A DNA stretch of 64,000 nucleotides, taken from NCBI RefSeq assembly GCF_900167535.1, contig NZ_FUYE01000012.1, positions 1 through 64,000 of the forward strand, given 5' to 3'. Positions 1,307 to 20,737 of this stretch are shown one piece after another (within the stretch, counting starts at the first letter, position 1; the number at the start of each line of letters is the position of its first letter). A program made the position numbers and the translations under genes. Source of the DNA: Prosthecobacter debontii. Its GTDB lineage: Bacteria > Verrucomicrobiota > Verrucomicrobiia > Verrucomicrobiales > Verrucomicrobiaceae. The notes below the pieces were generated by a model that saw nothing but the letters and a program-made list of their open reading frames with translations, ran no database searches and was not told the origin of the DNA.

Positions 1307-1322
1307 TGGCACTGATTGTGCG
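1307..1322 (+). promoter_or_regulatory. Candidate sigma-54 promoter for urtBCDE-hupE-ureA
   Basis: TGGCACTGATTGTGCG matches the sigma-54 consensus TGGCACR-N4-TTGCW at the invariant -24 GG (1308-1309) and -12 GC (1320-1321), with correct spacing. It departs from consensus at the R, at the first T of TTGC and at the last base. It lies between the urtA terminator and the urtB start, 33 bp before the ATG. Two closer matches occur elsewhere in the window ahead of nitrogen genes. Confidence 0.6.
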
Positions 1323-1354
1323 ACACCCAGACCTACTTTCCGACCTAATTCGCT

Positions 1355-3076
1355 ATGAATAAAGCTTGGCTTCACGGTATCTTTGCCGCCTTCATTTTCT
1401 CTTTGAGCGTTAGTCATGCCCAGGAGACCAAGACCGCTCGACAGATCATCTCTGAAGCTGTGCCATTAACTGAGGATAGTGATACTCAGGTTAAAATGAT
1501 TCAGTCCATGACGGGGTTACCTGATCCTGAGGTGGAGCCTTTGCTCGCCGCATGGAAAGAAGGTTCGATTTATCTCGTGACCGGTGCTGATGGTAAGAAG
1601 GTGGCCGTGACTCTGGCGGGTGATCCAGATGCAGCTAAAAAAGAAGCGGCCATTCGCCTGGACACCAAGGAGCCCCTCAAAGATGCGGCGGGTGCGGCGG
1701 TGCGTGTTTCGCCCGGCAGCACGGAGGTGGCCGAGACGGATAGTAGCATTCGCCGTGCGATGAAGGCGGTCACTGATTTGGCTAAACTCACGGCTCCTGA
1801 TGCCAAAGACAGGCTCATGGCCATCAGTCAGCTCGGCATGGAACGCGATCTGGCTAAACTGCCGATTCTGGAGGAGCGGCTCAAAGTGGAAACGGACAGT
1901 GGGGTGAAGCGTGCGGTGCAGGAAGCCATCGCCTTGACCCAATTGAAGAGTCCTGATGTGGCTGTGAAAATTAAGGGCTGTGAGGCATTGACCGATATCC
2001 ATCCTCTCAGTGCCAAAGATTCCTTGGAAGCCATTATCAGGGAGGCGGATCAGTCGGGGAATACCGAGCTGTCATCGGCTGCTCTGAAAGCGCTCAACGC
2101 GGTGGAGTCTCATCGTTCGACGGTGAATTTTTTTGGCACGATCTTCCGTGGGTTTTCTTTGGGGTCCGTCCTATTGGTCGTGGCCATCGGTCTGGCGATC
2201 ACCTTTGGATTGATGGGCGTAATCAATATGGCCCACGGGGAATTGATCGCAGTGGGGGCTTACACCACTTATGTGGTGCAATGCATTTTTGCAGATGGGT
2301 TGGCCATCTCTCCTTTCGGTTTTAACGTCTCCATTCCAGGGATGAAGGCCACGGGAACTCTGTATGAATTCTACTTTGTCGTGGCACTGCCGATGGCTTT
2401 CATCATGGCGGCTTTGGTGGGGTTGGCTCTTGAGCGCGGAGTGATCCGTTTTCTTTACCGCCGTCCATTGGAAAGCTTGTTGGCCACCTGGGGCGTCTCC
2501 CTCGTGCTGCAGCAGTTGTTCCGGTTAATCTTTGGTGCCAACAACGTCCAGGTGGGCAGCCCGTCCTGGCTGAGTGATAACTGGACGATCAATGATGTGA
2601 TTCTGGGATGGAACCGCGTGTTTGTTATCGGCTTTGCCATTCTGATTGTTGTTGGCACATGGGCCTTGCTGACGAAAACGCCTCTGGGTCTGTTGATTCG
2701 TGCGGTGATGCAGAATCGCAACATGGCGGCCTGTTTAGGGGTGCGCACGGAGCGGGTGAATATGCTCACGTTTGGCTTCGGCAGTGGCTTGGCAGGGTTG
2801 GCGGGGGCCTTCCTATCCCAGATTGGTAACGTGGGCCCGAGCCTGGGGCAAAACTACATCGTGGACGCCTTCATGACCGTGGTCGTCGGTGGTGTCGGAA
2901 GTCTGATCGGCACCGTCGCGAGCGCGCTTGGCATTGGGGTTCTGGATCAGTCACTCCAGCAGATTCTCGGTAATCCGGTCCTTGGTAAGATTCTCGTTTT
3001 GGGAGGCATCATCCTCTTTTTGCAATGGCGCCCAGCGGGCCTCTTCGCCACCAAAACACGCAGTCTGGAATCCTGA
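1355..3076 (+). CDS. urtB: Urea ABC transporter permease UrtB with periplasmic N-terminal extension
   Basis: Inner-membrane permease of the urea transporter (LivH type). Residues 1-22 form a signal peptide ending near SVSHA. Residues about 25-250 are hydrophilic with repeated helical pairs (HEAT-like by appearance), and the remaining 320 residues hold the permease core with about eight membrane segments, including GLMGVINMAHGELIAVGAYT and ERGVIRFLYRRPLESLLATWG. The long N-terminal extension is known for many bacterial UrtB proteins, whereas cyanobacterial ones lack it. The ATG at 1355 has no clear Shine-Dalgarno sequence but gives the signal peptide directly. urtC follows after 27 bp. Confidence 0.93.
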   Translation: MNKAWLHGIFAAFIFSLSVSHAQETKTARQIISEAVPLTEDSDTQVKMIQSMTGLPDPEVEPLLAAWKEGSIYLVTGADGKKVAVTLAGDPDAAKKEAAIRLDTKEPLKDAAGAAVRVSPGSTEVAETDSSIRRAMKAVTDLAKLTAPDAKDRLMAISQLGMERDLAKLPILEERLKVETDSGVKRAVQEAIALTQLKSPDVAVKIKGCEALTDIHPLSAKDSLEAIIREADQSGNTELSSAALKALNAVESHRSTVNFFGTIFRGFSLGSVLLVVAIGLAITFGLMGVINMAHGELIAVGAYTTYVVQCIFADGLAISPFGFNVSIPGMKATGTLYEFYFVVALPMAFIMAALVGLALERGVIRFLYRRPLESLLATWGVSLVLQQLFRLIFGANNVQVGSPSWLSDNWTINDVILGWNRVFVIGFAILIVVGTWALLTKTPLGLLIRAVMQNRNMAACLGVRTERVNMLTFGFGSGLAGLAGAFLSQIGNVGPSLGQNYIVDAFMTVVVGGVGSLIGTVASALGIGVLDQSLQQILGNPVLGKILVLGGIILFLQWRPAGLFATKTRSLES

Positions 3077-3103
3077 AATCCAACTTTCACGACACCTTCT
3101 TTC

Positions 3104-4240
3104 ATGACGCACTCCTTGCTCGTTCGCCCCATTGCCAAAAGAGAATGGACCTTCACTGCGGTCATCGCTTTTTTCTTCATCGTGCTGATGCCGTTGATGA
3201 ACTATTTCGGCTGGATCAGTGACTTCACCATCAACCTCTGGGGGAAATATCTCTGTTACGCCATGCTGGCCATCAGTGTGGATTTGCTCTGGGGTTATAC
3301 CGGGTTGTTAAGCCTCGGGCAGGCGCTCTTCTTTTCTTTGGGGGGCTACATGATGGGCATGTATCTCATGCGCATGATCGGGGATCTCGGGCAGTATCAC
3401 AAAGACATGCCGGATTTCTTGGTCTTCCTGGGCTGGGAACAGTTGCCCACTTTCTGGAAGCCGTTCAGCAACTTCCCCTTCGCTATGGTGATGATGCTGT
3501 TGCTGCCGGGGATTGTCTCCTATGTCTTTGGCTGGCTGGCGTTTCGTTCAAGGGTTCGCGGGGTTTATTTCTCCATCCTGACGCAGGCCCTGACTTACGG
3601 TGCCTCGCTCATGTTCTTCCGCAACGATATGCTCATGGGCGGAAATAACGGCTTTACGGATTTCCGCTTCATCTTGGGTTTCGACATCCGCAGTCCCGAG
3701 ACCAAGCGAGGATTGTTTATCGTGACGGCGCTGGTTCTCTCTCTGACTTATGTGGGATTGCGCTGCCTGACTCGGAGCCGATTCGGTCTGATTCAGCAGG
3801 CTGTGCGCGACAGTGAAAACCGCGTGCTCTTCAGCGGCTACTCATCGCCTAACTTCAAACTGTTTATCTTTGTCTTGAGTGCCTTGATCGGTTCCATCGG
3901 CGGAGCACTGTATGTGCCTCAGGTCGGCATCATTAACCCGAGTGAAATGACCACAGACAAGTCTCTCGAAGCCGTCGTTTGGACGGCGGTCGGTGGGCGC
4001 GGCACCTTGATTGGGCCGATCGTCGGCGCGGTCGGTGTCAATGCGCTGAAAAGCTGGGCCACTCGTGCCTACCCTGACCTTTGGCTGATCATCCTCGGCG
4101 GCATGTTCATCATCGTCGTGCTTTTCCTGCCGAAAGGGATCGTCGGGATTCCTGGGATGATCCAAGACTGGCTCAAAAAACGACAGCGCCTCAAGGAATC
4201 GGATGACGTCGCTGTGAAGCCTGAGGAAGAAGCTGCATAA
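3104..4240 (+). CDS. urtC: Urea ABC transporter permease UrtC
   Basis: Second permease of the urea transporter (LivM type), 378 residues, which is the usual length. A hydrophobic start is followed by about nine membrane segments. The LWGYTGLLSLGQALFFSLGG motif and the cytoplasmic-loop segment VRDSENRVLFSGYSSPNFKL are characteristic of LivM/UrtC. The C-terminus is charged (KKRQRLKESDDVAVKPEEEAA region). It sits 27 bp after urtB and 10 bp before urtD in one operon and should pair with UrtB to form the channel. Confidence 0.93.
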   Translation: MTHSLLVRPIAKREWTFTAVIAFFFIVLMPLMNYFGWISDFTINLWGKYLCYAMLAISVDLLWGYTGLLSLGQALFFSLGGYMMGMYLMRMIGDLGQYHKDMPDFLVFLGWEQLPTFWKPFSNFPFAMVMMLLLPGIVSYVFGWLAFRSRVRGVYFSILTQALTYGASLMFFRNDMLMGGNNGFTDFRFILGFDIRSPETKRGLFIVTALVLSLTYVGLRCLTRSRFGLIQQAVRDSENRVLFSGYSSPNFKLFIFVLSALIGSIGGALYVPQVGIINPSEMTTDKSLEAVVWTAVGGRGTLIGPIVGAVGVNALKSWATRAYPDLWLIILGGMFIIVVLFLPKGIVGIPGMIQDWLKKRQRLKESDDVAVKPEEEAA

Positions 4241-4250
4241 TTTCATTCAC

Positions 4251-5012
4251 ATGGACCATCCGCTCATTCTTAACGCAGAAGGCGTCAACAAGTCCTTCGC
4301 TGGTTTTAAAGCCATTACGGATCTCAATTTCTATCTCGTCGAAGGTGAACTTCGCACGGTGATCGGGCCGAATGGTGCTGGCAAAACGACCTTTCTGGAT
4401 CTTATCACCGGCCGGACCAAACCGGACACCGGCACCATCACTTTTGGAGCATTGACAGAACTGGTGCCGCTGAGCGAGCACGAGATCGTGCGCCTCGGCA
4501 TCGGCCGTAAATTTCAAACGCCGACCGTGTACACTGAGCACACGGTTTTTGAAAACCTCCTGCTTTCTCTGGAAGGGGTGCGAGGGGTTTGGCAGACACT
4601 CTTCAGCCGGACGACCAGCACGGACATTGACCGCATCGATGAGATTCTCAAGACCATCAATCTGGGCATGCGTCGCAATGACCTTGCGGGTTCTCTGTCT
4701 CACGGACAGAAGCAGTGGTTGGAGATCGGCATGTTGCTGGCTCAAAACTCCAAGCTGCTGCTGATCGATGAGCCTGCTGCTGGCATGAGTGACGACGAAA
4801 CGGCACTGACAGGTGAGCTTCTCCTGAAGCTGGCTGGGAAACACAGCATCATCGTCATTGAGCATGATATGGTCTTCGTGAAGCAGATCGCCACGGGCCG
4901 AAAAGTGACGGTGCTCCATCAAGGCAGTGTGCTCTGCGAGGGCAGTGTCGATGCCGTGCAGAACGACCCCAAAGTGATCGAAGTGTATCTCGGACGCAAG
5001 AAAGCCGCCTAA
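4251..5012 (+). CDS. urtD: Urea ABC transporter ATP-binding protein UrtD
   Basis: One of two ATPases driving urea import (LivG type), 253 residues. Walker A GPNGAGKT lies at residues 39-46, the signature LSHGQKQWLEIG at about 149-160 and Walker B LLLIDEPAAGM directly after. The LSHGQKQWLEI variant of the ABC signature is typical of UrtD rather than LivG. It lies 10 bp after urtC and 8 bp before urtE. Confidence 0.94.
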   Translation: MDHPLILNAEGVNKSFAGFKAITDLNFYLVEGELRTVIGPNGAGKTTFLDLITGRTKPDTGTITFGALTELVPLSEHEIVRLGIGRKFQTPTVYTEHTVFENLLLSLEGVRGVWQTLFSRTTSTDIDRIDEILKTINLGMRRNDLAGSLSHGQKQWLEIGMLLAQNSKLLLIDEPAAGMSDDETALTGELLLKLAGKHSIIVIEHDMVFVKQIATGRKVTVLHQGSVLCEGSVDAVQNDPKVIEVYLGRKKAA

Positions 5013-5020
5013 CCAAAGAC

Positions 5021-5716
5021 ATGCTTACTCTCTCTTCCATTCATGCATCCATCGGCGGTAGCCGCATCCTACGCGGTGTCGATCTGACCGTGCCCGATGG
5101 TCAACTGTGCTGTCTCATGGGCCGCAATGGCGTGGGTAAAACCAGCACCTTGCGCTCCATTGTCGGACTCTTCAAAACGGATAGCGGCAAGATCTCCTTG
5201 GCTGGGACGGACATCACCAAGCTGGCCCCTGAAGAGCGGGCACGACTCGGGCTTGCATATGTGCCTCAAGGTCGTGATATTTTTCCCTTCTTAACCGTGG
5301 AGGAGAATCTCTTGCTAGGGGCCACCGCCCGCGGGCTGAAGACCAATGGCAAGCTGGACCGGATCTTTACGCTTTTTCCCATCATCAAGGAATTCCTCCC
5401 ACGCAAAGGGGGCATGCTCAGCGGTGGTCAGCAGCAGCAGCTTGCGATCGCTCGTGCTTTGTTGACGGAACCCAAGGTGTTGATTTTGGATGAGCCGACG
5501 GAGGGCATTCAACCGAACGTGATTGATCAGATCGGTGACGCTCTGAAGATTCTGCGCTCTGAAGACAAAATGAGCATTCTTCTGGTGGAACAATACCTCG
5601 ACTTTTGCCGTGAATTGGCGGATGTATTTTACATCATGGACCGGGGTGCGGTCGTCGCTGAAGGTGGAGTCAAAGATCTCACCGACGAAGTGGTGAAAGA
5701 GCACCTGACGGTGTGA
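5021..5716 (+). CDS. urtE: Urea ABC transporter ATP-binding protein UrtE
   Basis: Second ATPase of the urea transporter (LivF type), 231 residues. Walker A GRNGVGKT is at residues 34-41, signature LSGGQQQQLAIARAL at about 132 and Walker B VLILDEPTEGI follows. The doubled glutamines in the signature are typical of UrtE. It is the last transporter gene of the run; the HupE/UreJ-like gene begins 21 bp later, linking urea uptake to urease. Confidence 0.94.
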   Translation: MLTLSSIHASIGGSRILRGVDLTVPDGQLCCLMGRNGVGKTSTLRSIVGLFKTDSGKISLAGTDITKLAPEERARLGLAYVPQGRDIFPFLTVEENLLLGATARGLKTNGKLDRIFTLFPIIKEFLPRKGGMLSGGQQQQLAIARALLTEPKVLILDEPTEGIQPNVIDQIGDALKILRSEDKMSILLVEQYLDFCRELADVFYIMDRGAVVAEGGVKDLTDEVVKEHLTV

Positions 5717-5737
5717 TCCAATCTGTGTTTTGAAACT

Positions 5738-6358
5738 ATGCCTGAGACTTCTTTGTCTATGATTTCGAAAATGAAGAACCGTGCTATCGGATGGTTCAGT
5801 GCTGCAACTGCAACAGTGCTGACGGCTCTGCCTTTGCATGCTCACCACTTGCCTCCGGGCATGGAGGACATCGATGAGTTTGAAGATGGAGCGGCCTTCA
5901 TGGCGGGGATTCGCCATTTCGTCTCGGGGGCGGATCATTGGTTGTTCGCGGTGGCCATAGGTGCCATGGCGGTCACCGTGATGAGAAGACGTAACGCGAA
6001 AAACTTGATGGTTGCTTTAGCTCTCGGGGCAGGCGTTGGAACTGCGTTAGGCGTGAATCAAGTGATGATTCCCGGGGCATCGTGGAGTGTGTTCGCTGCC
6101 TTTTTGGCACCTGCTCTGGTGTGGTGCCTGAAGGACTCGTTGTCGGGATGGGGCAAAGCGGGGCTGGTGATGCTGGCTGCGGTGTGGCAGGGTAATCAAC
6201 ACGGGTTGGCTTGGCCTTTGGACTCTGCTTCAGGCTTCTACACGGTGGGGATTTTGAGCACCCTGATGGTCTTTGTCGCCGGTGGTTATGGTCTTGCCTG
6301 GGCTCTGCGAAAAATGGTGGTGGCGCTGAGCTCTCGGCGGCTTATTGGGGCGCACTGA
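5738..6358 (+). CDS. HupE/UreJ family membrane protein, probable nickel permease
   Basis: A 206-residue membrane protein with a signal-like first hydrophobic stretch ending at PLHAHHLPPG and about five further membrane segments. The family motif is visible as RHFVSGADHWLFAVAIG, and a second histidine motif reads WQGNQHGLAWP. HupE/UreJ proteins are linked to nickel (sometimes cobalt) uptake and occur in hydrogenase and urease operons. Here the gene lies between urtE and ureA, so supplying nickel to urease is the natural inference. The start may instead be the in-frame ATG at 5759 or 5771, which would place the hydrophobic stretch closer to the N-terminus. Confidence 0.82.
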   Translation: MPETSLSMISKMKNRAIGWFSAATATVLTALPLHAHHLPPGMEDIDEFEDGAAFMAGIRHFVSGADHWLFAVAIGAMAVTVMRRRNAKNLMVALALGAGVGTALGVNQVMIPGASWSVFAAFLAPALVWCLKDSLSGWGKAGLVMLAAVWQGNQHGLAWPLDSASGFYTVGILSTLMVFVAGGYGLAWALRKMVVALSSRRLIGAH

Positions 6359-6810: not shown

Positions 6811-8628
6811 TCAGACCGTCGCGAGTTGACGTGTGGCCAACCAGGAGCGCCAGCCGCCAAAGTGGGTGATGTCCTCCGCGGTCTCTTCAACGATGCCTTC
6901 GCAAATAAAGCCTGTGACTTGACTGCCATCATCGAGGAGCACCTTGCCAAGACCCAAGGGAGCTCCGATTCCTTGCAGGAATGAGCCGACGGTGTGCTCG
7001 GGCATTTCCCAGATTTCCATGGCGATGGAGGATCCTCCGTCACTGACTCGAATCATGCCGGGCCGGTCTGGAATACGCCCTTTCGCACGCAGGAGGAAGA
7101 AGCGGTAGCACGGCGCACTGAGAGCATGGCGGACGAACTTGGCTTCGCGCTCACGAAGTTGCCAATGAAGGGCTAGGTCCTCCATGTGTGCGCCACAGAC
7201 GGCGATTTGCATCAGGGGGCTTTTAGGTTTGGCCACGGTTTGAGGGGTGGGCAGAGGTGCTGCATCACTCAAGACGGAGGTTTTACCGATGGGCAGATTC
7301 AAGGACGCATGAAAGTGTGCGGCGCAGTCGAGAACCAAGGCATCATCACAAGCGGGAGCGTAGAAGGTGACACCCCAGGGAAGGCCACTGCCGAGAAAGC
7401 CCGCCGGGACGGCACAACCGCAGAGGTCCAGCAGGTTCATGAAGTTGGTATAACGACCCAGATTGCTATTGAGCTGGATCGGATCGGCCTCGACTTCTGC
7501 CTTCGTGTAAATCGTGCCGGTGGTCGGCATGAGCAAGGCATCCACCTCACCCCAGACAAGCTGGCTGGATCGCTTGAGCGTCGCGAGCTTGTATTGGGCC
7601 TTGAAGGCATCGACAGCGCTGCCTTTGAGTCCGCCCTCGATGATGGTCCGTGTCACGGGCAGCATAGCTTCAGGGTTCTCAGCAAGCAGTTCCTGAACCA
7701 CAGCCGTCCGTTCTGCCACCCAGGGGCCTTCATAGAGTAAGCGGGCGGTATCGAGAAACGGCTGAATATCGACCTCGACGATTTGCCACCCCATCGTCAC
7801 CACCATTTGAGCGGCGTCTTCAAAGAGCTTTCTGGCATCGTCATTGCCAAAGAAATCCAGCTGGTCCATGCGCGGCACACCGATGCGCGGCGGCCACTTC
7901 ATCTCATGAAGTCGGCAACGGCGGCGGGCGTAGGGATCCGTTTCGTCATAGACGGCGGCGAGATTGAAGACATACGAGGCATCGGCGGCGGTTAACGCAA
8001 AGATCGAGACGCAATCCAAGGTGCGACAGGCTGGCACCACCCCACTGCAACTGAGCACGCCGCGCGTGGGCTTGAACCCGACCAGGTTGTTAAACGAAGC
8101 GGGCACACGTCCCGAGCCCGCTGTATCGGTGCCCAGCGAGAAGCTGCACAGGCCTTTCGCGACGGCGACTCCGGAACCACTGCTACTGCCCCCCGAGATG
8201 TAGTCGGGATTGAAGGCATTGTCTGGGGCACCATAGGGGGAGCGAACCCCGACGAGACCGGTGGCAAATTGGTCGAGATTGGTTTTCCCCATGGGAATGG
8301 CCCCAGCCGCGATCAGTTGCCCCACCACAAAGGCGTCCTGCTCCGCTTCGTAACTCCATGCTGGGCAGGCGGCCGTCGTGGCATAACCTGCACAATCGAT
8401 GTTATCTTTGATGGCAAAAGGGATGCCGTAGAGCGGTTTGGTATCAGGAGACTCGCCTTCTAAAGCCTGCAGGGACTGTTGCAACTGTTCCAAACTGGGA
8501 CGGCTGATCCAAATGGTGGGATCATCCGCAGCAGCACGCTGCCATGCTTCTAAGATGACTTCTTCAGGGGTGGTCGTGCCTTGGCGATAGGCCTGCAACA
8601 AAGTGGTGATCGAGAGATCCGGGATCAT
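6811..8628 (-). CDS. atzF: Allophanate hydrolase
   Basis: Hydrolyses allophanate to ammonia and carbon dioxide, the last step of the pathway encoded upstream. 605 residues: an N-terminal amidase-signature domain (about 1-430) with the catalytic lysine in FAIKDNID (K74), the GGSSSGSG loop (146-153) and the nucleophile serine in [12 protein letters not shown] (S172), then a C-terminal domain (about 470-605) typical of AtzF-type enzymes. Its start overlaps the stop of the carboxylase gene in ATGA, implying translational coupling. It is the last gene of the minus-strand operon. Confidence 0.93.
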
Positions 8629-11600
8629 GCGTGGACGGTCAGGAGGGTTTGGCCAGGGGTCACGGACTGGCCCTCACGCACGTGCAGTGCAGCCACCGTG
8701 CCAGCACAAGTGCTGGAGACAGGAATCTCCATTTTCATGGCTTCCACGATGAGGACACATTGACCTTCTTCCACTTGATCGCCTGCCTTTACTTGTAGCT
8801 TCCATAAGCTTCCGCTGACCGGACTCACCACAGCTTCATGGCCTTCTGGGATGCTGACTTCGGCACTCCCGCTCGTCGTCGTGGGGGCCGATTCGGTGAC
8901 ATCCAGACCTGCCAGACGCCATCTTTCGCGCTCCGCCTCAAAGGCCTCGCGTTGCATTTTGCGGAATGAACTGATACTTTTAGACTCTCCTTCCAGAAAG
9001 CTCAAATAGTCGCTGAGGCAGAAGGTGCTGGATTCAATCTGGGGGGTGAACCGCCCTGCAGGGAACTCGCGCCGCAGCTCGATCAGTTCATCCGCACTGA
9101 CGAGATAGAACCGCACCTGATCGAAGAATCTGAGCAGCCAGGGTTTGCCTTCTTCGAAGACATCCGTGACACGGTCGCGATTCCACATCTGAATGGTCCG
9201 GCCCACGAACTGGTAGCCGCCGGGACCTTCCATACCGTAGATGCACATGTAGGCCCCGCCAATGCCGACGGCGTTTTCCGGGGTCCACGTGCGGGCAGGA
9301 TTGTATTTGGTCGTCACCAGACGATGTCGCGGATCGAGCGGCGTGGCCACCGGTGCACCGAGATAGACATCTCCGAGCCCTAAAACAAGGTAACTGGCAT
9401 CGAGGACAATGCGTTGCACCTCGTCCTGACTGGACAGACCATTGATGCGTCGGATGAACTCGATGTTGCTCGGGCACCAGGGGGCATCAGGCCTAACGGA
9501 CTGCATGTATTTATCAATCGCGAGCTGGGTCTGTGGATCATCCCAGGACAAAGGTAGATGGACAATGCGAGACGGCACTTCGAGATGCTCGACATCGTCT
9601 AACGACTCAATTTGCGCGATGATCAGTTGCTCGGCATCGGCGAGCCGGAGATGCTGACCGTCCACATGGATCTGTAGCGAACGAATGCCGGGGGTCAGAT
9701 CCACAATGCCGGGGTGTTCCAGGGCTTTCAGCTTGAGATAGACGGCGTGCACCCAGAAGCGCAGGGCGATATCGAGCACGAGCGGGCCAAACTCGATCAG
9801 GAAGTGCCGATCCCCTGCTGGCCGGAAGACGACTTCAGGTCGGGATCCCTCAGCCGGGATGATGTGACGGATGGCGCTGGCGGGGACGCTGTGCTCGGGC
9901 AGGGCAGGCGGGATGAAATCGGCCCCGTTGAGGGCTGCATCCAAGCTGGCTTCGAGGGCTTCCGCTTCTTCGAGAGTGATGGCTTGAAAGCGGATTTTCT
10001 CCCCGGGTTTCAGTTGGCCCAGTTTCCACAGTTCCGCATGGGCGACCACCGCTGGGCAGACGAATCCGCCCAAGCTAGGGCCATCAGGACCGAGGATGAT
10101 CGGCATATCGCCCGTGAAATCGATGGCCCCGATGGCGTAGGCGTTGTCGTGGATGTTGGAGGGATGCAGGCCGGCTTCGCCTCCATCGGCACGTGCCCAT
10201 TGGGGTTTCGGTCCGATCAACCGCACCCCGGTGCGAGCGGAGTTATAATGAACTTCCCAGTCGGTGCCGAAAAACATCCGGATGTCTTCGGGGGTGAAGA
10301 AGTCGGGCGCACCATGGGGGCCATAGATGACGCGGATGATCGTGGGACCGTTGGCATCAGCGGTCACGGAGAGTGGGTGCACCTGGGCGATCTTTTCCGC
10401 TGCTGGTGTGGCGATGTCTTGCCCTAGATGTAAGACATCCCCCACTCGCAAGGCGCGGCCTGCATGACCGCCAAAGTTGCCTAACGTAAAGGTGGATCGG
10501 CTGCCGAGATAAAGGGGCACGTCCAGGCCTCCACGAATGGCAAGGTAAGCCCGGCAGCCTTGGCCATCGGCTCGTCCGAGTTTCAATGTCTGACCCGCCT
10601 GGATCTTGACGGGTTTCCAAAACGAAATCGGGGTGCCATCCAGCTCGGCCTTCAGGGGCGCGCCGGTCAGGGCAATCGTGGCATCCGTATTGAATCGTAA
10701 TGTCGGGCCTGAAATGGTGATCTCCAAACCTGCGGCTCCTTCCTGATTGCCGACGAGGCGATTGGCAACACGCAGGGCTAGCGGGTCCATGGCTCCCGAC
10801 GGTGGGACGCCGATTTCCCAATAGCCCAAGCGACCTGGATAATCTTGAACGGTGGTTTGCACGCCTGGCGCAAGGACGTCCAGGGTCGGGGGGTGATATT
10901 GAAACTGGGTGGCGAGGGCGCGTGTGGTGATGCGGCCTTCCATAAACAGCGGATCACGGATGACTTGCCGAAGGTAGGTGAGGTTGGTCTCGATGCCGCT
11001 GATGCGTGTCGCTTCCAGGGCTTCTTGGAGCTTGGTGATCGCTTCGGCTCGATCCTTGCCGTGAACGATGATCTTCGTCAGCAGGGGATCGTAATAAGGT
11101 GTGACTTCGGTGCCTGTGGTGACCCAGCCATCGCAGCGGGCCATGGGGGGAAGTTCAACTTCGGTTAGGCGTCCACAGCTTGGCTGAAAGTCCTTGTTCG
11201 GATCTTCGGCATAAACACGAACTTGGATCGAACTGCCCGAGGGGGTGAAGCGATAGTCGGCCAAGTCAAGGTTCTCACCCGCAGCGGTGCGGACCATCCA
11301 TTCCACCAGATCCAGTCCGGTGACGGTTTCTGTGACTGTGTGTTCGACTTGCAGGCGGGTGTTCACCTCCAAGAAATAGAACTCTCCACTGTCGGCATCG
11401 TAAACGAACTCAACCGTCCCAGCGGAGCGATAATGAACGGACTCCCCCAGGCGCACGGCACAGTCCCACAAAGCTTGGCGGGTGGATTCAGTGAGATTCG
11501 GAGCCGGGGTTTCTTCAATGATCTTTTGATTTCGCCGTTGGGTGGAACAATCGCGTTCACCGAGTGCGACGACTTTGCCTTGGCCATCCCCAAAGATCTG

Positions 11601-12230
11601 GACCTCCACATGGCGAGCATTCACCACCAGCTTCTCCACAAAGACACCTCCGTCGCCGAAGCTGGATTTGCCCTGACGAACGACGGATTCAAAGGCCGCT
11701 CGGAGGGAATCCGCATCATCACAACGACGCATGCCGATGCCGCCTCCGCCTGCGGTGCTTTTCAACATGACAGGAAAACCAATGCGAGACGCTTCCTGAA
11801 TGGCTTCATCTGCGTCCTGGAGGAGGTCGGAGCCAGGAACGAGGGGCACCTGACAAGCAAGGGCGCGTTCCCTGGCGGTATGCTTCAAACCGAAGGCCCG
11901 CATCTGATCGGGTGTCGGTCCCATGAAGGCGAGCCCCGCAGCTTCACAGGCCTCCGCAAACCCCGGGTTTTCGCTCAAGAGACCATACCCTGGGTGCACG
12001 GCTTGGGCACCCGAGAGTGTGGCGACTTCAATGAGCTTCGCCTGATTGATGTAGCTTTCGGAAACAGGTGCAGGGCCTAACAAATAAGACTCGTCAGCCA
12101 TGGCAACGTGAGGAGCATCACGATCGGCTTCTGAATACACGGCCACAGAACCCATGCCGAGTTTCTTGAGGGTGCGAATGATGCGGCAGGCAATTTCGCC
12201 GCGATTGGCGATCAGAACTTTGGAGAACAT
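8625..12230 (-). CDS. Biotin-dependent urea/guanidine carboxylase
   Basis: ATP- and biotin-dependent carboxylase of 1201 residues. The order is biotin carboxylase (about 1-450; [16 protein letters not shown] start, GGGGIGMR glycine loop, [12 protein letters not shown]), carboxyltransferase halves of the KipA/AHS2 type (about 460-770) and KipI/AHS1 type (about 800-1010), and a C-terminal biotinyl domain with the lysine in [10 protein letters not shown]. Proteins of this layout were named urea carboxylase. Those encoded beside the UAAP1/UAAP2 pair have been shown in several bacteria to be guanidine carboxylases, and both UAAP genes are immediately upstream here. Guanidine is therefore the likelier substrate, with urea the alternative. 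It lies 3 bp after the preceding gene and overlaps atzF. Confidence 0.92.
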
Positions 12231-12233
12231 AAT

Positions 12234-12881
12234 TCAGTCCCAGATAAGAACTCTCACAGGCGTGGGGTTATAGGCGTTGCAGGGGTTATTCAGTTGCGGG
12301 CAGTTGGAGATGAGGGCGATCACGTCCATCTCAGCGCGCATTTCGACGTAGAAGCCGGGGCCTGAGACACCGTCGGCAAATCGGAGTTGGCCGTCTGGAC
12401 TCACCGGCACATTCATGAAGAAGTTGATGTTGCAGGTGATGTCACGTTTTCCCAGATCATGGCCCCAGCACTGCACTCCCCGGATGAAGCTGTCTCGGCA
12501 GGCGTGCATGGGTTCTTTGTCAAAGGCGTAGCGCATGACATTGCTCTCTCTGGAGCAGGCACCCCCGAGCGTATCGTGATTACCGCAGGTATCGGCCACA
12601 ATGGTAAGCAGAGGATTGCCCCGTGTGGACATCAACCGAGTCCCCGTGGTCAGATACAGAGCGGCTTGATGGCGGATGGTATCGCTGGCGCTGTAGCGTT
12701 CGACGGGATCATGGGCGCTGTAAAAGAGGGTATCGGCAGCTTGGTTACCTTCCAGATCCACGATGCGAAAGGTCTGGCCCTTTTTGATTTCATGGACCCA
12801 ATGATCTCCGGCCAGAACGGTATGGTCGTAGCAAGCCTGTTCAGGATCGAGTGTTGAGGGGGTGGGAATGAAAGCACTCAT
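12234..12881 (-). CDS. Urea carboxylase-associated protein, probable carboxyguanidine deiminase subunit
   Basis: 215-residue DUF1989-family protein, tentatively the UAAP1 type. Visible family features are [17 protein letters not shown], the cysteine/histidine-containing [17 protein letters not shown] and the closing [17 protein letters not shown]. Family knowledge: the two UAAP proteins together form carboxyguanidine deiminase, which converts carboxyguanidine to allophanate and ammonia between the carboxylase and AtzF. The gene overlaps the paralogous gene upstream by ATGA and is 3 bp from the carboxylase gene, matching a heteromeric complex made in step. Confidence 0.87.
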
Positions 12882-13597
12882 TGGGCGAGTAAGTAGAAGT
12901 CCTGGGTGTTGCGGTAAGCCCGGGCGTTTTCAGGACGGACGGTCAAGCAGGGGTCGTCCTGCGCGGGAGGTTCACTCTGAAAGACCTCGAGCTTGATCCG
13001 GCGTGGATGGTAAACAGGATCGGGATCGAGCGGATGCTGGCAGGTGTTGAGAATCACCAGTGTGTCCATCTCAAAACGAAGATCGACCGAGTCACCCGCT
13101 TGGGAGTGATGACTGACGAAGTTCAACTTACCGGACTCGTCGGCAGTGACTTTGCTGAACCAATTGATGTTAGGCACGAGGTCTCTTTCTCCCATGCCCC
13201 ATTTGGAGAGCTCGATCAAAAAGCACTCGCGGGCATTTCGGTAAAAGTCATTGCGGGCGGCCTGAAAGGTTTTGTCCCCATATTTTTGATGCACTAAGGC
13301 TGCATCACTGCCGCCGCAGACCGTGTCATGCCAGCCTGGAGTGTCCTGCGTGATGGAGGCAAACAGGCGGCCCATGTCTGAATGCAGACAGTAAGGGGCA
13401 CGCAGGTAAAAGATGTGCTGCCCTTTGAGGGTGTCAGGCATGTTGTAGCGTTCATGCCGCTCAGTGGCGTGGTAGAGCAGCATGCCAACATTGGCACCGC
13501 CTTCGAGATCCGTGAGTCGGAGGGTCTTGTTGCGGCCAATGATGCGTGACCACATACCCGCACCGGTTAATTCGAGAGTGTAGAGAGGATGGCTCAT
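12878..13597 (-). CDS. Urea carboxylase-associated protein, second probable carboxyguanidine deiminase subunit
   Basis: 239-residue DUF1989-family protein, tentatively the UAAP2 type, paralogous to the next gene downstream (compare [17 protein letters not shown] here with [17 protein letters not shown] there). It has [12 protein letters not shown] and a C-terminal [19 protein letters not shown]. The paired arrangement is the hallmark of guanidine-degrading clusters and is not expected for plain urea amidolyase. It starts 16 bp after the NikR-like regulator gene and overlaps the next gene by 4 bp. Confidence 0.87.
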
Positions 13598-13613: not shown

Positions 13614-14102
13614 TCATTGCCCTTCGGGTGGAGTCGCTGGGGGCGGTTCTTCCATTTGGGTTTGAATAGGTGGGAGTAAGGTTCGACTGAGGTTGAGCCG
13701 ACCCGCCAGGACTCCTTTGCAGGCTAACAACTGATTGGCAATTTGACGCAAGCGCTTGGCGGGGCCCTGGACGAGGATGACCTCCATCGTATTGCTGTTT
13801 TCCAAGAGCACGTGAAGGGAACTGATCACATGGCGAATGTTCTCATGCTGAATGTCTGCGATTTGCTGCTTCAGCCCTGGACGTTTGTGATCGTAAAACA
13901 GCGTGATGGTGCCTGCCATCATTCGATTGCCCTTGAGGCTGTAGTAATCTGCGATGTGTTGAGAGAGGACTTCGGAGATGGCTTGGGAGCGGTTCTGAAA
14001 CCCCCGTTCCTCCATCAGTTCTTCAAATTGATGAAACAGCGCATCGGGTAGCGAAATGGTGATTCGCTGAGCGTTTTCGGGTTTGGCTGAGTCACTGGAC
14101 AT
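13614..14102 (-). CDS. NikR-like ribbon-helix-helix regulator with incomplete nickel site
   Basis: 162-residue DNA-binding protein with NikR layout. The ribbon-helix-helix domain (about 10-52) keeps R13-T15-S17 in the strand that contacts DNA in E. coli NikR (R3-T5-T7). The C-terminal ACT-like domain spans about 60-140. Aligned by eye to E. coli NikR, nickel ligands H76 and H87 are present (H86, H97), but H89 is L99 and C95 is T105. Nickel sensing by the normal four-ligand site is therefore doubtful. A proline-rich tail (PPPATPPEG) is extra. It lies within the carboxylase operon, with a 97-bp gap upstream that holds two copies of GTATGA, so it may be partly self-regulated. Confidence 0.8.
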
Positions 14103-14135
14103 TGCCCTGATTTTTTAGCACTGCTTGCGCCAAGC

Positions 14136-14162
14136 GTATGAAGTTTTTATCGAGAAGTATGA
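14136..14162. promoter_or_regulatory. Tandem GTATGA repeats upstream of the NikR-like gene
   Basis: GTATGA occurs at 14136-14141 and 14157-14162 on the plus strand, separated by 15 bp, within the 97-bp gap ahead of the NikR-like gene. GTATGA/TCATAC is the half-site of the E. coli NikR operator (GTATGA-N16-TCATAC), but here the copies are direct repeats rather than inverted. A similar pair lies at 17563-17590. Binding by the NikR-like protein is an inference. Confidence 0.45.
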
Positions 14163-14199
14163 CGATTGAAGTCTGTGGGTAAGAGCGAGAAAGGGGGGC

Positions 14200-15099
14200 T
14201 TATTCCACGTCATCACCCACCTCGGTGAGCCGAGTCATGGGTAGCTTGTCGAATTTGGGCTTCGCATGGCTATCTTCCGGATGAATGATGGTTTCCAGAT
14301 GCTGCTTGGTCGCGATGAATTCGGGTGAACGAAGTTGATCGTGATTTCTGGGTCTGGGCACGGGCACTTCGACGATCTCCCGCACACGCCCAGGCCTTGG
14401 GTCGAGCACGAGAATGCGATCGGACAGGAAGATGGCCTCATCCAGATCATGCGTGATGAAGAAGATGGTGATGTCCACGTTCCTCCAGATCTGAAGCAAG
14501 TAGGCCTGCATCTGCTGGCGTGTCTGGGGGTCCAGAGCACCAAAGGGTTCATCCATGAGGAGGATGCGCGGCTCATTGGCAAGCGCTCGTGCAATGGCGG
14601 CACGTTGTTTCATGCCGCCGCTGAGCTGATGGGGATAGGCATCTTCAAATTTATCCAACCCCACCAAGGCTAACCATTCACGGGCATGAGATTCATTGGT
14701 GGTGGAGGCCTTGCCGGCCATGCGGGGGCCAAACATGACATTCTGTTTCACCGTCAGCCATGGGAACAGGGTGTAACTCTGGAATACCATGCCTCGATCA
14801 CGCCCGGGGCCGTTGACGGGCACGCCATCGACGAGCACTTGACCTTCCGTCGGAGTTTCTAGACCGGCGAGAATGCGGATCAGGGTGGATTTGCCGCAGC
14901 CTGATTGGCCGAGCACACACATGAACTCACGACGATGAACATCGAGATGAATGTCTTTCAAGGCCACCACCTCACCTCCCTTGGAAGGAAAGCGTTTATG
15001 CAGCCCGGAAATCTGTAATAGTTTGGGACGCGCTTTGAGTCGGTCAAAGCGTGCTTTCACCGCCGGGGCTTGCTCCAGATAGTTCAGGCTGCTGATCAT
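14200..15099 (-). CDS. Nitrate/taurine-type ABC transporter ATP-binding protein
   Basis: 299-residue ATPase of the SsuB/TauB/NrtD class. Walker A GQSGCGKS is at residues 64-71, signature [18 protein letters not shown] and Walker [14 protein letters not shown] follow, then the H-loop histidine in [11 protein letters not shown] chose the ATG at 15099 because it overlaps the permease stop in ATGA; the longer open frame merely runs through the permease gene. About 60 C-terminal residues extend past the ATPase core. With the adjacent permease and binding protein it should form the importer for guanidine or a related compound. Confidence 0.9.
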
Positions 15100-16484
15100 G
15101 AAGCGGTCGTGGTGGAAGTGGACTCCGAAGGGATCTGGGCAGGAAACTTGCGTCGTGTGAGTCCTGCGATTTTTGACACCAATCGAGTGATGATGCTTTG
15201 GCGAGATTGCTCCATCCAGGGGAAGAGGAATCGACCGATGAGATCCAGAAGCTGGTCCATGAAAAAGCCGGATAAGCCGATCAGAAGAATGGCCGGATAG
15301 ACGATGTCGAACTGGAAGCGCCGTCCATGCGTGTCGATCACCTCGGCCAAACCACTTTTGAAACCCAGCAACTCGGCAATGACCAGCCAAGTCCATGCCG
15401 TGCCGAAAAGAAGACGAAGATCATTGTAAAGGTTCGGCAGAATCCCTGGGACAACCACGTGCGCCAGGAGTTGGCGCTGATTGGCCCCGAGTGTCTGCGC
15501 TGCCTCAAGTAAAGAGCCATCCAGGCGGCGGGTGGTTTTCGCGATGGTGAGGATGGCGCAGGGAAGGGTGCCGAGAAAAACGAGCATGATCTTCGGCCCG
15601 AGATCGAGACCGAAGATGGCCATGAGCACCACGCCAAAAGCGGGTGCGGGCATGTAGCAAAAGAAGTTGGTGAAGGGCTCGATGAGCTTGGAAAAGAAAT
15701 CGAAGGTGCCTGCGATGATGCCCAAGGGCGTGGCGACTAAAATGGCCAGTAGATAACCCAAGACGATCGTGCGCCAGGACTCACCGTAACGTTGCAGCAG
15801 CGTCTTGCGTTCAGAACCGGGTTCATCGCTGTCAGCGGAGGGGGCGTCGGCACTGATGCCTTTCCAGAAGGATTTGGCGACCACGTCTGGAGGCACCAGA
15901 TAGACCGGGCGGGATACTTCCTCGGAGGAATCTGGGATCAGCTTCAAGAGTGACTCCGTCGGCCATTCCGGCGCGACTTGATCGAGCAAAGCCGCGTTGG
16001 CTTGGATGATCTTCAGGTTCTCATCGGTCAAAGGTTGTTTGGGGGCCTCGAGTTGGCCCTTGGCCAACTGGGTCCAAACTTTACGAATGGCCTCATCATC
16101 GGTTTCAAGGCCTCGGTTTAACCAACCGTTAATCACCGCGGTGGGATAGAGCTGACGCAGGATTTTTTTGTTTTGACGACTTGAGCTGGTTAACGGAGTT
16201 CCTGCTTTCCTTGCGGCACGGATGTCTTCGTTATCCTGCTCGATGGCGGAGGTGAATTGCTTCCAGGTCACCGGGTCCACGCGATCCCCAGCCGTGTAGA
16301 TATTCTGCACGCGAGGGCTTTCGGCGGAGATGGTCACGAGGTGGGCCACTTTCCACCACGGACCGTAGGCTGCCACGCACCAGACGATGAGTGGCAGACT
16401 AAAGGACATGATCATCAGCAGGGAGGCACGGGCCTGATCGAGTTCTTTACGAACTCCAAACCAGTGTTTGCCTGCGGATGCCAT
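15096..16484 (-). CDS. ABC transporter permease with large periplasmic insert
   Basis: 462-residue permease of the SsuC/TauC/NrtB class, whose members usually have about 250-290 residues. Membrane segment 1 (about 20-42) is followed by a hydrophilic stretch of about 150 residues (43-195) before the usual [11 protein letters not shown] lead-in. The permease core spans about 235-430, with the EAA loop at [20 protein letters not shown]. The insert looks helical and charged and matches nothing I recognise. The gene lies between the binding protein (43 bp upstream) and the ATPase (4-bp overlap). Confidence 0.88.
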
Positions 16485-16527: not shown

Positions 16528-17502
16528 TTATTTCCCCAGCACTTCTTTAGTGAAGGAGGGATCGAGATAGGCTTCAATGTCCGCAGGCTTTTCATAGACC
16601 TTGAACTTCACATTGAAGTCATCCACCACCTTGGTGCTGCCGTAAATGGAGCCGAGGCCATCGGCTTTCTCCCAGGCTTTGAGGGCTTCTTCGGGGGAGA
16701 GGATTTTGGTGCCGTCCAGCAGAGGTTCATACTCCGCAGGCTTTACCCCGACACGCTCAGCCAGGATGGCCAGGGCATCGTCCAGGTTTTTCTCTTCGCT
16801 GAGGTAGGAGACAATGCGATACCACACCTTGACCACTTTCAGCCATTCATCACGGCGGGCTTTGACACTGGCGGGATCACAGAAAAGGCCGTCATAGATC
16901 AGGCCGGGGGCGTCTTTGGAGGTGAAGACGGGTTTCGAGCCGGGGACCAGTTTCAGGGCTTGGCCTGAATTGGGCTGCCAAGCAGCGATGGCGTCCACTT
17001 CACCCGAGGCGAACACCTGAGGCGTGTTGTTGGTGGGGGTGTTTTTAATGGTGATGTCTCCTTCTGCCATGCTGTTGAGCTCCAGCCCTTTGAGAAGCAG
17101 GAGGTGTTCGACAAAGCCTTCTTCAAGAGCGACGGTTTTGCCCTTCAGATCTTTGAAGGAGGCGATGCCGGGTTTGACAACGATCATGTCATTGCCATTG
17201 GAGTAGTCATTGAGCAGGATGGCGACGGAGGCTTTACCCGTGGCACCCGTGACGAGGGCATCTCCGTTGGTGACGCAGACGGCATCCAGCTTGCCTGCCG
17301 CATAGGCTTCCATGGACTTCACGTAATCCATCCAGACAAATTCAGTCTCGACGCCTTCTTCTTTAAACCAGCCCTTCTTGATGCCGATTTCCCAAGCGAC
17401 CCAACCGGGCCAGTCGGAATAACCAATTTTAAGCGGTTCGGCAGCCAAGCTGAGGAAAGGGGCTAGGCAGGGGAGGAGTAGAGCAAGGACTTTTCGTTTC
17501 AT
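16528..17502 (-). CDS. ABC transporter substrate-binding protein (NMT1/TauA-like), probable guanidine binding
   Basis: 324-residue periplasmic protein with a signal peptide (residues 1-20, ending LSLAA) and an NMT1/NrtA/TauA-like domain: [37 protein letters not shown] and [14 protein letters not shown]. Such proteins head many UAAP/carboxylase operons, where guanidine is the likely ligand; taurine- or nitrate-like ligands are less likely given the neighbours. It is the first gene of the minus-strand operon, with a sigma-54-type promoter 42 bp upstream of its ATG. Confidence 0.87.
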
Positions 17503-17543: not shown

Positions 17544-17559
17544 AGCACTCCACGTGCCA
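17544..17559 (-). promoter_or_regulatory. Sigma-54 promoter of the guanidine/urea carboxylase operon
   Basis: Read on the minus strand, TGGCACGTGGAGTGCT matches 15 of 16 positions of the sigma-54 consensus (TGGCACR-N4-TTGCW), including the -24 GG and -12 GC with exact spacing. It predicts a transcript starting near 17533 and a leader of about 30 nt before the binding-protein gene. Activation by an NtrC-type enhancer-binding protein would be required (established for this sigma factor); none is encoded in the window. Confidence 0.85.
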
Positions 17560-17562
17560 ATG

Positions 17563-17590
17563 CCATACAGGTATCCTGGTGCGTTCATAC
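17563..17590. promoter_or_regulatory. Tandem CATAC repeats in the divergent promoter region
   Basis: CCATAC (17563-17568) and TCATAC (17585-17590) are direct repeats with starts 22 bp apart. They lie just upstream of the -24 element of the minus-strand operon and overlap the candidate -35 of ureB. They resemble the GTATGA pair upstream of the NikR-like gene, read on the other strand. One regulator could influence both divergent promoters (inference). Confidence 0.4.
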
Positions 17591-17993: not shown

Positions 17994-19711
17994 AGATCAC
18001 ACGCAAACAACACGCCAGCATGTTCGGCCCAACGGTGGGCGATCAGGTGCGCCTCGCCGATACGGAGCTCTTCATTGAAGTGGAGCGGGATCTCATCGCG
18101 GAGAAAGGGGGCTACGGCAACGAGGTCAAGTTTGGCGGAGGCAAGGTCATCCGCGATGGCATGGCGCAGTCGTGCTTGGCCCTGGATGCCGAGTGCCTGG
18201 ATCTGGTCATCACCAACGCGACGATTTTAGATGCCGTTCAAGGGGTGATCAAAGCCGATATTGGGATCAAGCATGGTCGCATTGTTGGCATCGGTCATGC
18301 GGGTAATCCTCTGCTGCAGGATGGCATTGATATGGTGATCGGCGCGGGCACGGAAGTGATCGCCGGTGAGGGATGCATCATCACCGCTGGGGGCATTGAC
18401 ACCCACATTCACTTCATTTGTCCTCAGCAGATCGATCATGCTCTCGCCAGTGGCGTCACGACGATGCTCGGTGGAGGCACAGGTCCGGCCCATGGCACCT
18501 ATGCCACCACATGCACACCTGGGATCTGGAACATTCATCGCATGCTGGAGGCGGCGGATGAGTATCCGATGAATTTGGGCTTTTTAGGCAAGGGCAATTG
18601 CTCCACACCTGCTCCGCTCCGCGAGCAGATTTTGGCAGGAGCGATTGGCTTGAAATTGCATGAGGACTGGGGCACCACACCTGCGGCGATTGATACCTGT
18701 CTGGGGGTCGCCGATGAATTGGATGTGCAGGTGGCGATCCATACGGATACGCTGAATGAAGCTGGCTTTGTGGAGAGCACGCTCAATGCCTTCAAAGGAC
18801 GCACGATCCACACCTATCACTCGGAGGGGGCTGGCGGTGGTCACGCTCCCGACATCATCAGGGTGTGTGGTGAGGCCAATGTCTTGCCCTCCTCAACCAA
18901 CCCGACACGCCCCTTTACCATTAACACCATTGATGAGCATCTGGACATGCTCATGGTCTGCCATCACCTGGATTCCAAGATTCCAGAGGATGTGGCGTTT
19001 GCGGAATCTCGTATCCGTCCTGAAACCATTGCGGCGGAGGATTTGCTGCATGACCTCGGAGCGATCTCGATGATGTCGAGCGATAGTCAGGCCATGGGAC
19101 GACTTGGCGAGGTCATCACTCGCACGTGGCAGACAGCGCACAAGATGAAGACCCAGTTTGGCAAGCTGGATGGTCCTGAGCATAACGCCGCCGATAACTA
19201 CCGTGCGCTGCGTTACATCGCCAAATACACGATCAACCCGGCTCTTACGCACGGCATCGCTCATGAAGTGGGCAGCATCGAGGTCGGTAAGCTTGCGGAC
19301 CTGGTGGTATGGAAGCCGATGTTTTTCGGAGTGAAACCAGAGGTCGTGCTGAAAGGCGGCATGATCGCCATGGCCAACATGGGCGATCCCAATGCCAGTA
19401 TCCCGACTCCACAGCCGATGTTTTACCGGCCTCAATTCGGTGCGCATGGACGCGCGAAGTTCAATACCAGTATCACCTTTGTGAGCCAAGCAGCGCTATC
19501 TAGCGGAGTGGTCAAGCAGCTCGGTGTGTGTAAGAAACTGAGCGCTGTGCAAACCTGCCGAACGGTGAGTAAGCGCGACATGCTCTGGAACAATTACCTG
19601 CCCAAAATCGAAGTGGATCCAGATACCTACACCGTGAAAGCCGACGGCCGAGAACTCCGTTGTGAACCCGCCAGTGTCTTGCCCATGGCCCAGCGGTATT
19701 TCCTTTTCTAG
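17990..19711 (+). CDS. ureC: Urease subunit alpha (catalytic)
   Basis: Catalytic subunit hydrolysing urea to ammonia and carbamate, 573 residues. Nickel ligands and active-site residues are all visible: H139 and H141 in IDTHIHF, the carbamylated lysine K222 in [10 protein letters not shown]251, H277 in [12 protein letters not shown], and the flap C324-H325 in MVCHHLD. The enzyme therefore looks intact and active. It begins inside the ureB stop codon. A toxin-antitoxin pair, not an accessory gene, follows it. Confidence 0.97.
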
Positions 19712-19762: not shown

Positions 19763-19999
19763 ATGATTCTGGAAACCATTCCCGAGATTCAGTCGCTCAC
19801 GGTCGATCAGAAACTTCGACTCGTCTGGGAGATTTGGAATGATGTTTCGAGAGATGCATCGCTATCTCCCAGATCTGAATCGTTGCTTGCTGAGCGACTT
19901 GCTGAATATGACGCCAACCCTACTGCTGTCCGCACCACGGATGAAGTCACTGCTGGTATTCAACGTCTCAAGCAGAGATTGGCTTCAGAGCGACCATGA
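19763..19999 (+). CDS. Addiction-module antitoxin (TIGR02574-like)
   Basis: 78-residue acidic protein of the putative addiction-module component family: ETIPEIQSLTVDQKLRLVWE followed by a helical tail with DEVTAGIQRLKQRLAS. It overlaps the RelE/ParE-type toxin gene by ATGA. GAGGA directly abuts the ATG. A weak promoter (TTGTGG 19728-19733, TAATAT 19752-19757, 18-bp spacer) would give an almost leaderless transcript, a low-confidence reading. The pair sits within the urease operon between ureC and ureE. Confidence 0.8.
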   Translation: MILETIPEIQSLTVDQKLRLVWEIWNDVSRDASLSPRSESLLAERLAEYDANPTAVRTTDEVTAGIQRLKQRLASERP

Positions 20000-20301
20000 A
20001 TCAGACCCTATGGACGCTTGGGGCAGAGATGGATGTCCAGGCCATTTACGAACGTCTCGAAGTATTGGAAGAGGGGATGGGCGATCGGTTTTATGGAGAA
20101 GTCTTGGCCGATCTCAAGTTATTGGAGGCGTTTCCAGAGATTGGCTCTCTGGTTTATGGAGACAGGCTTCGACGGGTCTTTGTTTTCAACCGCAACTATG
20201 GTCTCTACTATGTGGCCGAGAAAAGCAGGCTGGTGATACATGCCTTGTTAGATCTCCGGCAAGATCCGGATCAGATTCGGCGTCGTTTAGGGAGGGCATG
20301 A
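19996..20301 (+). CDS. RelE/ParE-family toxin
   Basis: 101-residue protein with the ParE/RelE fold signature: an N-terminal helix pair, LLEAFPEIGSLVYGDRLRRV, FNRNYGLYYVAEKSRLVIHALLDLRQDP and the terminal RRRLGRA. Family members poison either the ribosome (mRNA cleavage) or DNA gyrase; sequence alone does not settle which. Its start overlaps the antitoxin stop by 4 bp, the standard antitoxin-first order. ureE begins 4 bp after its stop. Confidence 0.82.
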   Translation: MNQTLWTLGAEMDVQAIYERLEVLEEGMGDRFYGEVLADLKLLEAFPEIGSLVYGDRLRRVFVFNRNYGLYYVAEKSRLVIHALLDLRQDPDQIRRRLGRA

Positions 20302-20305
20302 TGTC

Positions 20306-20737
20306 ATGATCTTAGTGCAACGAATGCTCTCGGAGACGTCCATGCGACCTGTCTCCGAGCAGGTGGAGCTTCTCGTCGAGCGACGGCTTTTTCTCAAGCG
20401 GCGTTGGCGTGGTGTGGCTGGGGATGGAACCGAGTTCGGTTTCGATCTCGAGTCACGACTGAAGCATGGAGGCGTGGTTTATCAGACCGAATCCGTGGAC
20501 TATGTCGTGCGCCAGGAGACGGAATTGGTTTATCAAATCCGCCCTGAAAATCCCGAGCAGGCGGCTTTGATGGGATGGAAGATTGGTAACCTGCATCTCG
20601 GTGTGCAGGTGATTGACGGGTTCATCCGCATCGTTCACGATACTGCTGTTCTCCAACTCTTTGAACGTGAAGGTTGGGCCTATGAAGAAGTTCACGTTGT
20701 GTTTAACCCCTTGCGTGTGACGGCCCATGCTTCCTGA
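20306..20737 (+). CDS. ureE: Urease accessory protein UreE
   Basis: Nickel-carrying metallochaperone that delivers nickel to the urease accessory complex, 143 residues. The core motif is recognisable as GWKIGNLHLGVQVIDG, with the conserved histidine of GNxH, and a typical C-terminal ACT-like half. It lacks the histidine-rich tail of Klebsiella UreE, so it should carry nickel only at the dimer-interface site. It starts 4 bp after the toxin gene and overlaps ureF by 11 bp. Confidence 0.88.
   Translation: MILVQRMLSETSMRPVSEQVELLVERRLFLKRRWRGVAGDGTEFGFDLESRLKHGGVVYQTESVDYVVRQETELVYQIRPENPEQAALMGWKIGNLHLGVQVIDGFIRIVHDTAVLQLFEREGWAYEEVHVVFNPLRVTAHAS

Follow-up and report, generated by a model that had tools for sequence, protein, structure and literature searches.

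A NikR-like protein of Prosthecobacter debontii is best described as belonging to a branch of the NikR superfamily that accompanies guanidine operons and whose input was probably rebuilt

The window analyzed here, a stretch of 64,000 nucleotides from Prosthecobacter debontii, encodes a protein that is best assigned to a branch of the NikR superfamily which goes with guanidine operons and whose input has been rebuilt. On the DNA side its output is most likely that of an ordinary NikR, and what it reads is most likely nickel no longer. The protein very probably serves as a local regulator of the guanidine operon in which its gene lies, and the explanation that we favor as a whole, namely that a repurposed, autoregulating NikR locally represses the genes by which guanidine is taken up and degraded, is a likely one. 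The gene order is SBP-permease-ATPase-[NikR-like]-UAAP1-UAAP2-carboxylase-allophanate hydrolase, with the following genes:

16528 to 17502, minus strand: ABC substrate-binding protein (SBP), similar to TIGR03427, 'putative urea'
15096 to 16484, minus strand: ABC permease
14200 to 15159, minus strand: ABC ATPase (the longest ORF reaches 15396)
13614 to 14102, minus strand: NikR-like RHH regulator of 162 aa, an intact ORF with RHH and NikR_C
12878 to 13597, minus strand: UAAP1, carboxyguanidine deiminase subunit (TIGR03425)
12234 to 12881, minus strand: UAAP2, carboxyguanidine deiminase subunit (TIGR03424)
8625 to 12230, minus strand: biotin-dependent carboxylase, annotated as urea carboxylase, with D704 at K. 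lactis N1330
6811 to 8628, minus strand: allophanate hydrolase

The window protein is a member of the NikR superfamily. A Pfam search identified an RHH_1 domain at the N-terminus (E=5.2e-6) and a NikR_C domain (PF08753, E=4.4e-25), and the protein scored above the cut-offs of NCBIfam models NF003381 (123.7 bits vs 105), NF002169 and NF002815 and below those of TIGR02793 (77 vs 175 bits) and NF001884 (65 vs 119 bits). The best solved relative was NikR of P. horikoshii (phmmer, 1.3e-28). The NikR fold was predicted by AF2 (pLDDT 88), and the top Foldseek matches of this model were all NikR structures (E=1.9e-12), in agreement with the NikR architecture proposed in the preliminary description; by analogy the protein would be a tetramer. 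It was the sole NikR_C protein found in the 6.29-Mb genome. Alignment to E. coli NikR also bore out the proposal that the DNA-contact residues are kept: R13, T15 and S17 correspond to R3, T5 and T7, the contact pattern of the family, and NikR-type predicted operators were found (see below). The potassium-site acids Glu30 and Asp34 are replaced by Q40 and E44, and the canonical NikRs of the phylum vary at position 30 as well. Comparison of the gene with relatives at 79–86% amino-acid identity gave pN of about 0.10–0.14 against pS of about 0.8, and dN/dS was about 0.1 where computable. This purifying selection, together with retention across the clade, rules out a decaying gene or pseudogene with an eroded nickel site.

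The nickel ligands of NikR, in square-planar geometry, are His76', His87, His89 and Cys95 (PMC7055735). In the window protein two of these are kept (H76 as H86 and H87 as H97) and two are lost (H89 to L99 and C95 to T105), a reading that is secure because the C-terminal domain aligns to solved NikRs without gaps. The preliminary description had assigned L99 and T105 by eye, and an alignment with E. coli NikR that needed no gaps returned exactly the same residues; an alignment error or chance was discarded on the basis of this alignment and of the repetition of the pattern in independent genomes. A residue comparison was then made between 56 non-redundant variants and 30 canonical NikRs, each at <85% identity. 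The HHHC tetrad was present in all 30 canonical sequences and in none of the 56 variants, and the same was true of C95 by itself. The other ligands were retained in 23% (H89), 30% (H76) and 80% (H87) of the variants, and the second-shell H62 was found in 31% of them vs 100% of the canonical NikRs. Loss of the nickel site is, on these sequences, virtually certain, and the window protein in all probability lacks the standard nickel response, as had been suspected in the preliminary description. Counting against a nickel-blind reading is the HHHY type (6/56 variants), in which three His are kept and which could still bind metal.

Several positions distinguish the variants from canonical NikRs. 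Gln at the position of E. coli residue 102 (Ec102; Q112 in the window protein) occurs in 100% of the variants where canonical proteins have Arg or Lys, and Glu at Ec91 (E101) in 96% where these have Asp, Ser or Asn. A C-terminal Pro is found in 100% and PP in 87%, with a tail of the PP[LIV]H type. With E101, Q112 and a PPIQ tail, the window protein is typical of the guanidine-operon clade. Beyond the phylum, Ec102 is Gln in 9/9 proteobacterial records with the operon, and Ec91 is Asp in Acinetobacter. The tetrads, on the other hand, differ between sister clades (RHLT, RHLV, YHLT, HHHY, HLHS, RQMN, AHFS, QHQI and others); since the nickel positions drift in this way, the nickel cage itself would not simply be the new pocket. 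The region of E101 and Q112 is a better candidate for it, and these residues, one nearly invariant and the other invariant, are candidate contacts for guanidinium.

Could the protein still be a metalloregulator? In such a case a remodelled site, made of three His/Tyr or of His and other donors, would sense another metal, or nickel more weakly, and the nickel-free pathway would be repressed according to metal status. The retention of H97 in 80% and of H86 in 30% of the members is consistent with this, as are the HHHY subclade with all three of its His and the presence of H72 in the window protein. Against it, the tetrad varies freely among sister clades, unlike a retained metal site, H62 is lost in most members, and the gene tracks guanidine genes and not nickel genes. 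We therefore regard this reading as quite unlikely, and prefer that of a regulator whose signal is a small-molecule ligand of the pathway, hypothetical as yet and held at slightly better than even.

The distribution of the gene was examined in 388 evenly drawn genomes of Verrucomicrobiota, 134 of which had a NikR_C match, and 40 of the loci were read in their 20-kb context. The variants formed a single clade (support 98/97) in a tree computed with the ligand columns removed. Within the 40 loci, HHHC NikRs were never beside UAAP or carboxylase genes, and NikRs beside such genes were never HHHC. An alignment of 28 sequences being too diverse, a tighter one was used to scan 84,980 species; this added 72 loci that repeated the split between tetrad and context and included gammaproteobacterial MAGs; two canonical HHHC matches in the scan (Myxococcota and Kiritimatiellae) were again away from the operon. 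None of the 30 canonical comparison NikRs lay in a guanidine carboxylase/UAAP operon. As to the question raised earlier, whether UAAP operons commonly encode the variant, the answer in the phylum sample is affirmative: the NikR-like gene was with the operon in 34/41 genomes that have a guanidine-type carboxylase operon. Seven guanidine-type operons of the phylum are without it, which counts against the favored explanation.

The gene is also found in proteobacteria, as judged from records in plasmid and phage collections and from three MAGs. Its order relative to the guanidine genes in Novosphingobium and Sphingobium is the same as in Verrucomicrobiota, and in Asticcacaulis it accompanies the guanidine gene set and is transcribed divergently. 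In two Acinetobacter loci (L170 and L172) it adjoins genes for allophanate hydrolase and an SBP. The locus on an Acinetobacter plasmid (L172) has in addition an SMR exporter and a 2OG-Fe(II) oxygenase nearby, and this gene set resembles a methylguanidine/guanidine cluster; an oxygenase of this type is part of the described methylguanidine pathway (PMC12508155). The record of L170 (CAKLQH020000001.1) bears the name Acinetobacter phage MD-2021a; around the NikR-like gene it has the look of a contig from a bacterial chromosome.

Other NikR-like genes were observed as well. In L047 (G301) the sensor domain carries a frameshift while the operon is intact, representing either a sequencing error or a real loss. 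L058 (G134, 4495–4830) is an HHHY-type remnant lacking the N-terminus, in a genome without a full-length urea or guanidine carboxylase, and the regulator thus appears to decay once the operon is lost. L075 (G107) and other weak NikR_C matches (family f26, genus g82; 22–35 bits) make up a second degenerate group; the tetrad of L075 is NRTS with no guanidine operon near, possibly a separate second loss of the nickel site.

The position of the gene between those of the ATPase and UAAP1 confirmed the earlier placement inside the carboxylase operon, and the substrate of the pathway is indicated by the carboxylase. Asp at K. lactis position 1330, where urea carboxylase has Asn1330, discriminates guanidine carboxylase (PMC11410670). 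The window enzyme has D704 at this position and the GLGD aspartate at K. lactis 1584; by the Asp criterion it is predicted to be a guanidine carboxylase, and the ligand of the TIGR03427-like SBP is presumably guanidine. The same Asp was present in 92/92 of the carboxylases that are linked to a NikR-like gene and cover the site. Three Asn-type (urea) carboxylases, which are Urt-linked and without UAAPs, had no NikR-like gene, ruling out a linkage to urea carboxylase as such, and in genome G180, which has both types, the regulator is with the guanidine operon only.

A motif-blind count of dyads in the 330 bp upstream of NikR-like and SBP genes was led by GTAATA-N16-TATTAC, GTATGA-N16-TCATAC (the E. 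coli nik operator) and GTATTA-N16-TAATAC. At a gap of 16, perfect dyads were found in 70 regions vs 14.9 in shuffles, and GTNNNAC-N14-GTNNNAC scored >=8 in 97/174 upstream regions vs 0.8 in shuffles, counts that include related loci and so are not of independent events. A predicted operator of the NikR type, with paired half-sites about 22 bp apart, hence recurs upstream of the NikR-like and SBP genes. Canonical NikRs of the phylum have the same site class upstream of their own genes (14/35 at >=8), and the operator would therefore be inherited. It recurs across phyla (L159, L167, L170 and L172), and occurs in Acinetobacter, Asticcacaulis and gammaproteobacterial MAGs. Counting against the favored explanation, in three Novosphingobium/Sphingobium loci (L169, L173 and L174), where the NikR-like gene closely follows transporter genes, none was seen directly upstream of the gene, the only region scanned. 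Control regions preceding the genes for carboxylase, allophanate hydrolase, urease and Urt had essentially no such site, or no more than background, and UAAP operons without the regulator had none. The elements predicted in the window are as follows:

14136 to 14163, minus strand: predicted operator GTCATAC-N14-TTCATAC
14117 to 14132, minus strand: putative sigma54 promoter TGGCGCAAGCAGTGCT (GG-N10-GC), 3 bp downstream of the operator
17562 to 17590, minus strand: weak operator-like sequence GTATGAA...TGTATGG with a background-level score, 2 bp upstream of the SBP promoter
17544 to 17559, minus strand: putative sigma54 promoter TGGCACGTGGAGTGCT of the SBP-permease-ATPase genes

The predicted operator at 14136–14163 has T for G in one half-site. 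It is the sole exact TCATAC-N15-TCATAC in the 6.29-Mb genome, and hence the protein is probably a local regulator; a broader pattern had one more match in the genome, yet the reversed control had more. In the sequence at 17562–17590, a single half-site seems to be conserved within the genus; this weak site and the T for G count against the favored explanation.

Sigma54-type elements (GG-N10-GC, >=9/12) were present in 105/174 upstream regions vs 4.8 in shuffles, and a scan for sigma70 promoters gave matches at chance level only. The position of TGGCGCAAGCAGTGCT is conserved in relatives; the start predicted from it would leave a leader of only about 5 nt, which makes the exact start tentative and counts against the favored explanation. 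TGGCACGTGGAGTGCT overlaps a chance-level terminator-like call. The window genome encodes two sigma54 proteins, and use of sigma54 at these promoters is plausible. In the window and in related clades the operator is placed 0–4 bp upstream of the -24 element, and at many SBP promoters over the predicted start site; both placements would fit repression.

The following mechanism can be proposed: (i) the guanidine-operon branch would have arisen once from an autoregulated, nickel-responsive NikR; (ii) the branch retained the fold of NikR, its ribbon-helix-helix domain and an operator of the NikR type (paired GTNNNAC half-sites separated by 14 bp), the square-planar nickel site disappeared, and the conserved Glu101, Gln112 and Pro-Pro tail were acquired; (iii) this operator lies immediately in front of, or across the start of, the promoters of sigma54 type that would serve the nikR-UAAP and transporter genes; and (iv) sigma54 would signal nitrogen need while guanidine or an early pathway product would release (or reset) the repressor, so that nitrogen need and substrate would both be required, as in an AND gate. 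That the clade consists of transcription factors sensing guanidine itself or its immediate product (carboxyguanidine or allophanate) is a tentative proposal, hypothetical and somewhat short of even.

Alternatively, a ligand-free constitutive repressor or autoregulator could set the basal level, with induction left to sigma54/NtrC or, in some hosts, to a guanidine riboswitch. Guanidine-type UAAP operons without a NikR-like gene (L078–L080, L083 and L085, within S_L078-S_L085) also have strong promoters of the sigma54 type in front of the SBP gene, with no operator found there, and guanidine-I riboswitches coexist with the NikR-like gene in Acinetobacter and one gammaproteobacterial MAG; both observations agree with such a repressor. 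The sensor domain, however, is under purifying selection with clade-specific invariant residues (E101, Q112, L118 and P144), a conservation not easily accounted for unless the domain has an allosteric or partner role, which makes the ligand-free reading unlikely. The guanidine-I riboswitch was found in 0/388 genomes of the phylum, and with no match to its aptamer in the window, riboswitch control of the window operon was set aside. L167 of A. baumannii has a guanidine-I riboswitch.

The window protein and the NikRs of E. coli, H. pylori and P. horikoshii share the RHH and NikR_C/ACT-like fold, the R/T/S DNA contacts, the half-site spacing (as in GTATGA-N16-TCATAC) and the autoregulatory placement. 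They differ in that NikR has the HHHC tetrad and a linkage to nickel transport, whereas the window clade has E101, Q112, the Pro-Pro tail and a linkage to guanidine genes. The nickel-binding NikR of Geobacter uraniireducens reportedly recognizes tandem half-sites, GTGTTAC-N13/14-GTGTTAC; these resemble the sites of the window clade and of Opitutaceae (GTAACAC-N14-GTAACAC, a direct repeat) in half-site type, spacing and direct-repeat orientation. The protein that NCBI annotates, by domain alone, as 'CopG family ribbon-helix-helix protein' beside UAAP1 in Novosphingobium and Asticcacaulis shares the gene set, Gln at Ec102 and a PPL-type tail, and has a more diverged tetrad (AHFS, LHFS). The guanidine-I riboswitch (RF00442) has the same targets, guanidine carboxylase operons, and is an RNA sensor, not a protein.

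In the open-access literature searched we found no description of a guanidine-operon NikR family. NCBI models that bear the name nickel-responsive NikR match every member scanned, so many of these may be misannotated as nickel sensors. A 2025 review names riboswitches as the only known guanidine receptors besides transporters and enzymes, and adds that regulatory proteins binding guanidine may yet be found (PMC12186494). The clade is a natural experiment, a metalloregulator with its DNA-binding output kept and its sensor rebuilt, and a candidate protein switch for guanidine-use genes, for which so far only RNA switches are known. If its ligand were guanidine, it would set a protein beside the four classes of guanidine riboswitch, would explain the control of guanidine use in Verrucomicrobiota without the guanidine-I riboswitch, and would offer a small, genetically encoded guanidine sensor. 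The predicted operator and the clade-specific residues make the question of the ligand directly testable.

On the strand opposite to the guanidine operon, a complete urease operon begins at 17673. The preliminary description had placed the NikR-like gene next to urease and suggested a switch between this nickel enzyme and a nickel-free alternative route. The two are 3.6 kb apart, and near in one congener too (L041), which speaks for the switch; adjacency in the strict sense did not hold, as they are separated by the three genes of the ABC transporter and by a divergent promoter region. Urease is near in only about 5 of about 100 relatives, no operator rises above background upstream of urease or urea-transport genes, and the Asp at K. 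lactis 1330 marks the pathway as one for guanidine and not as a second way of using urea. With no operator at urease and no conserved association, the switch was rejected as highly improbable and the urease neighborhood is incidental.

Three further features were observed in this part of the window. Between ureC and ureE lies a 156-aa ORF (19839–20306, plus strand) with no Pfam match. An RF02514 (5' ureB sRNA) match of 81.5 bits at 18148–18440 on the minus strand, antisense within ureC and also seen in L041, may be due only to the urease coding sequence being conserved. At 25–6358, convergent with the guanidine operon, are genes for a urea-type periplasmic binding protein and a branched-chain-type permease, apparently UrtABCDE, followed at 5738 by a gene for a HupE/UreJ (nickel) permease.
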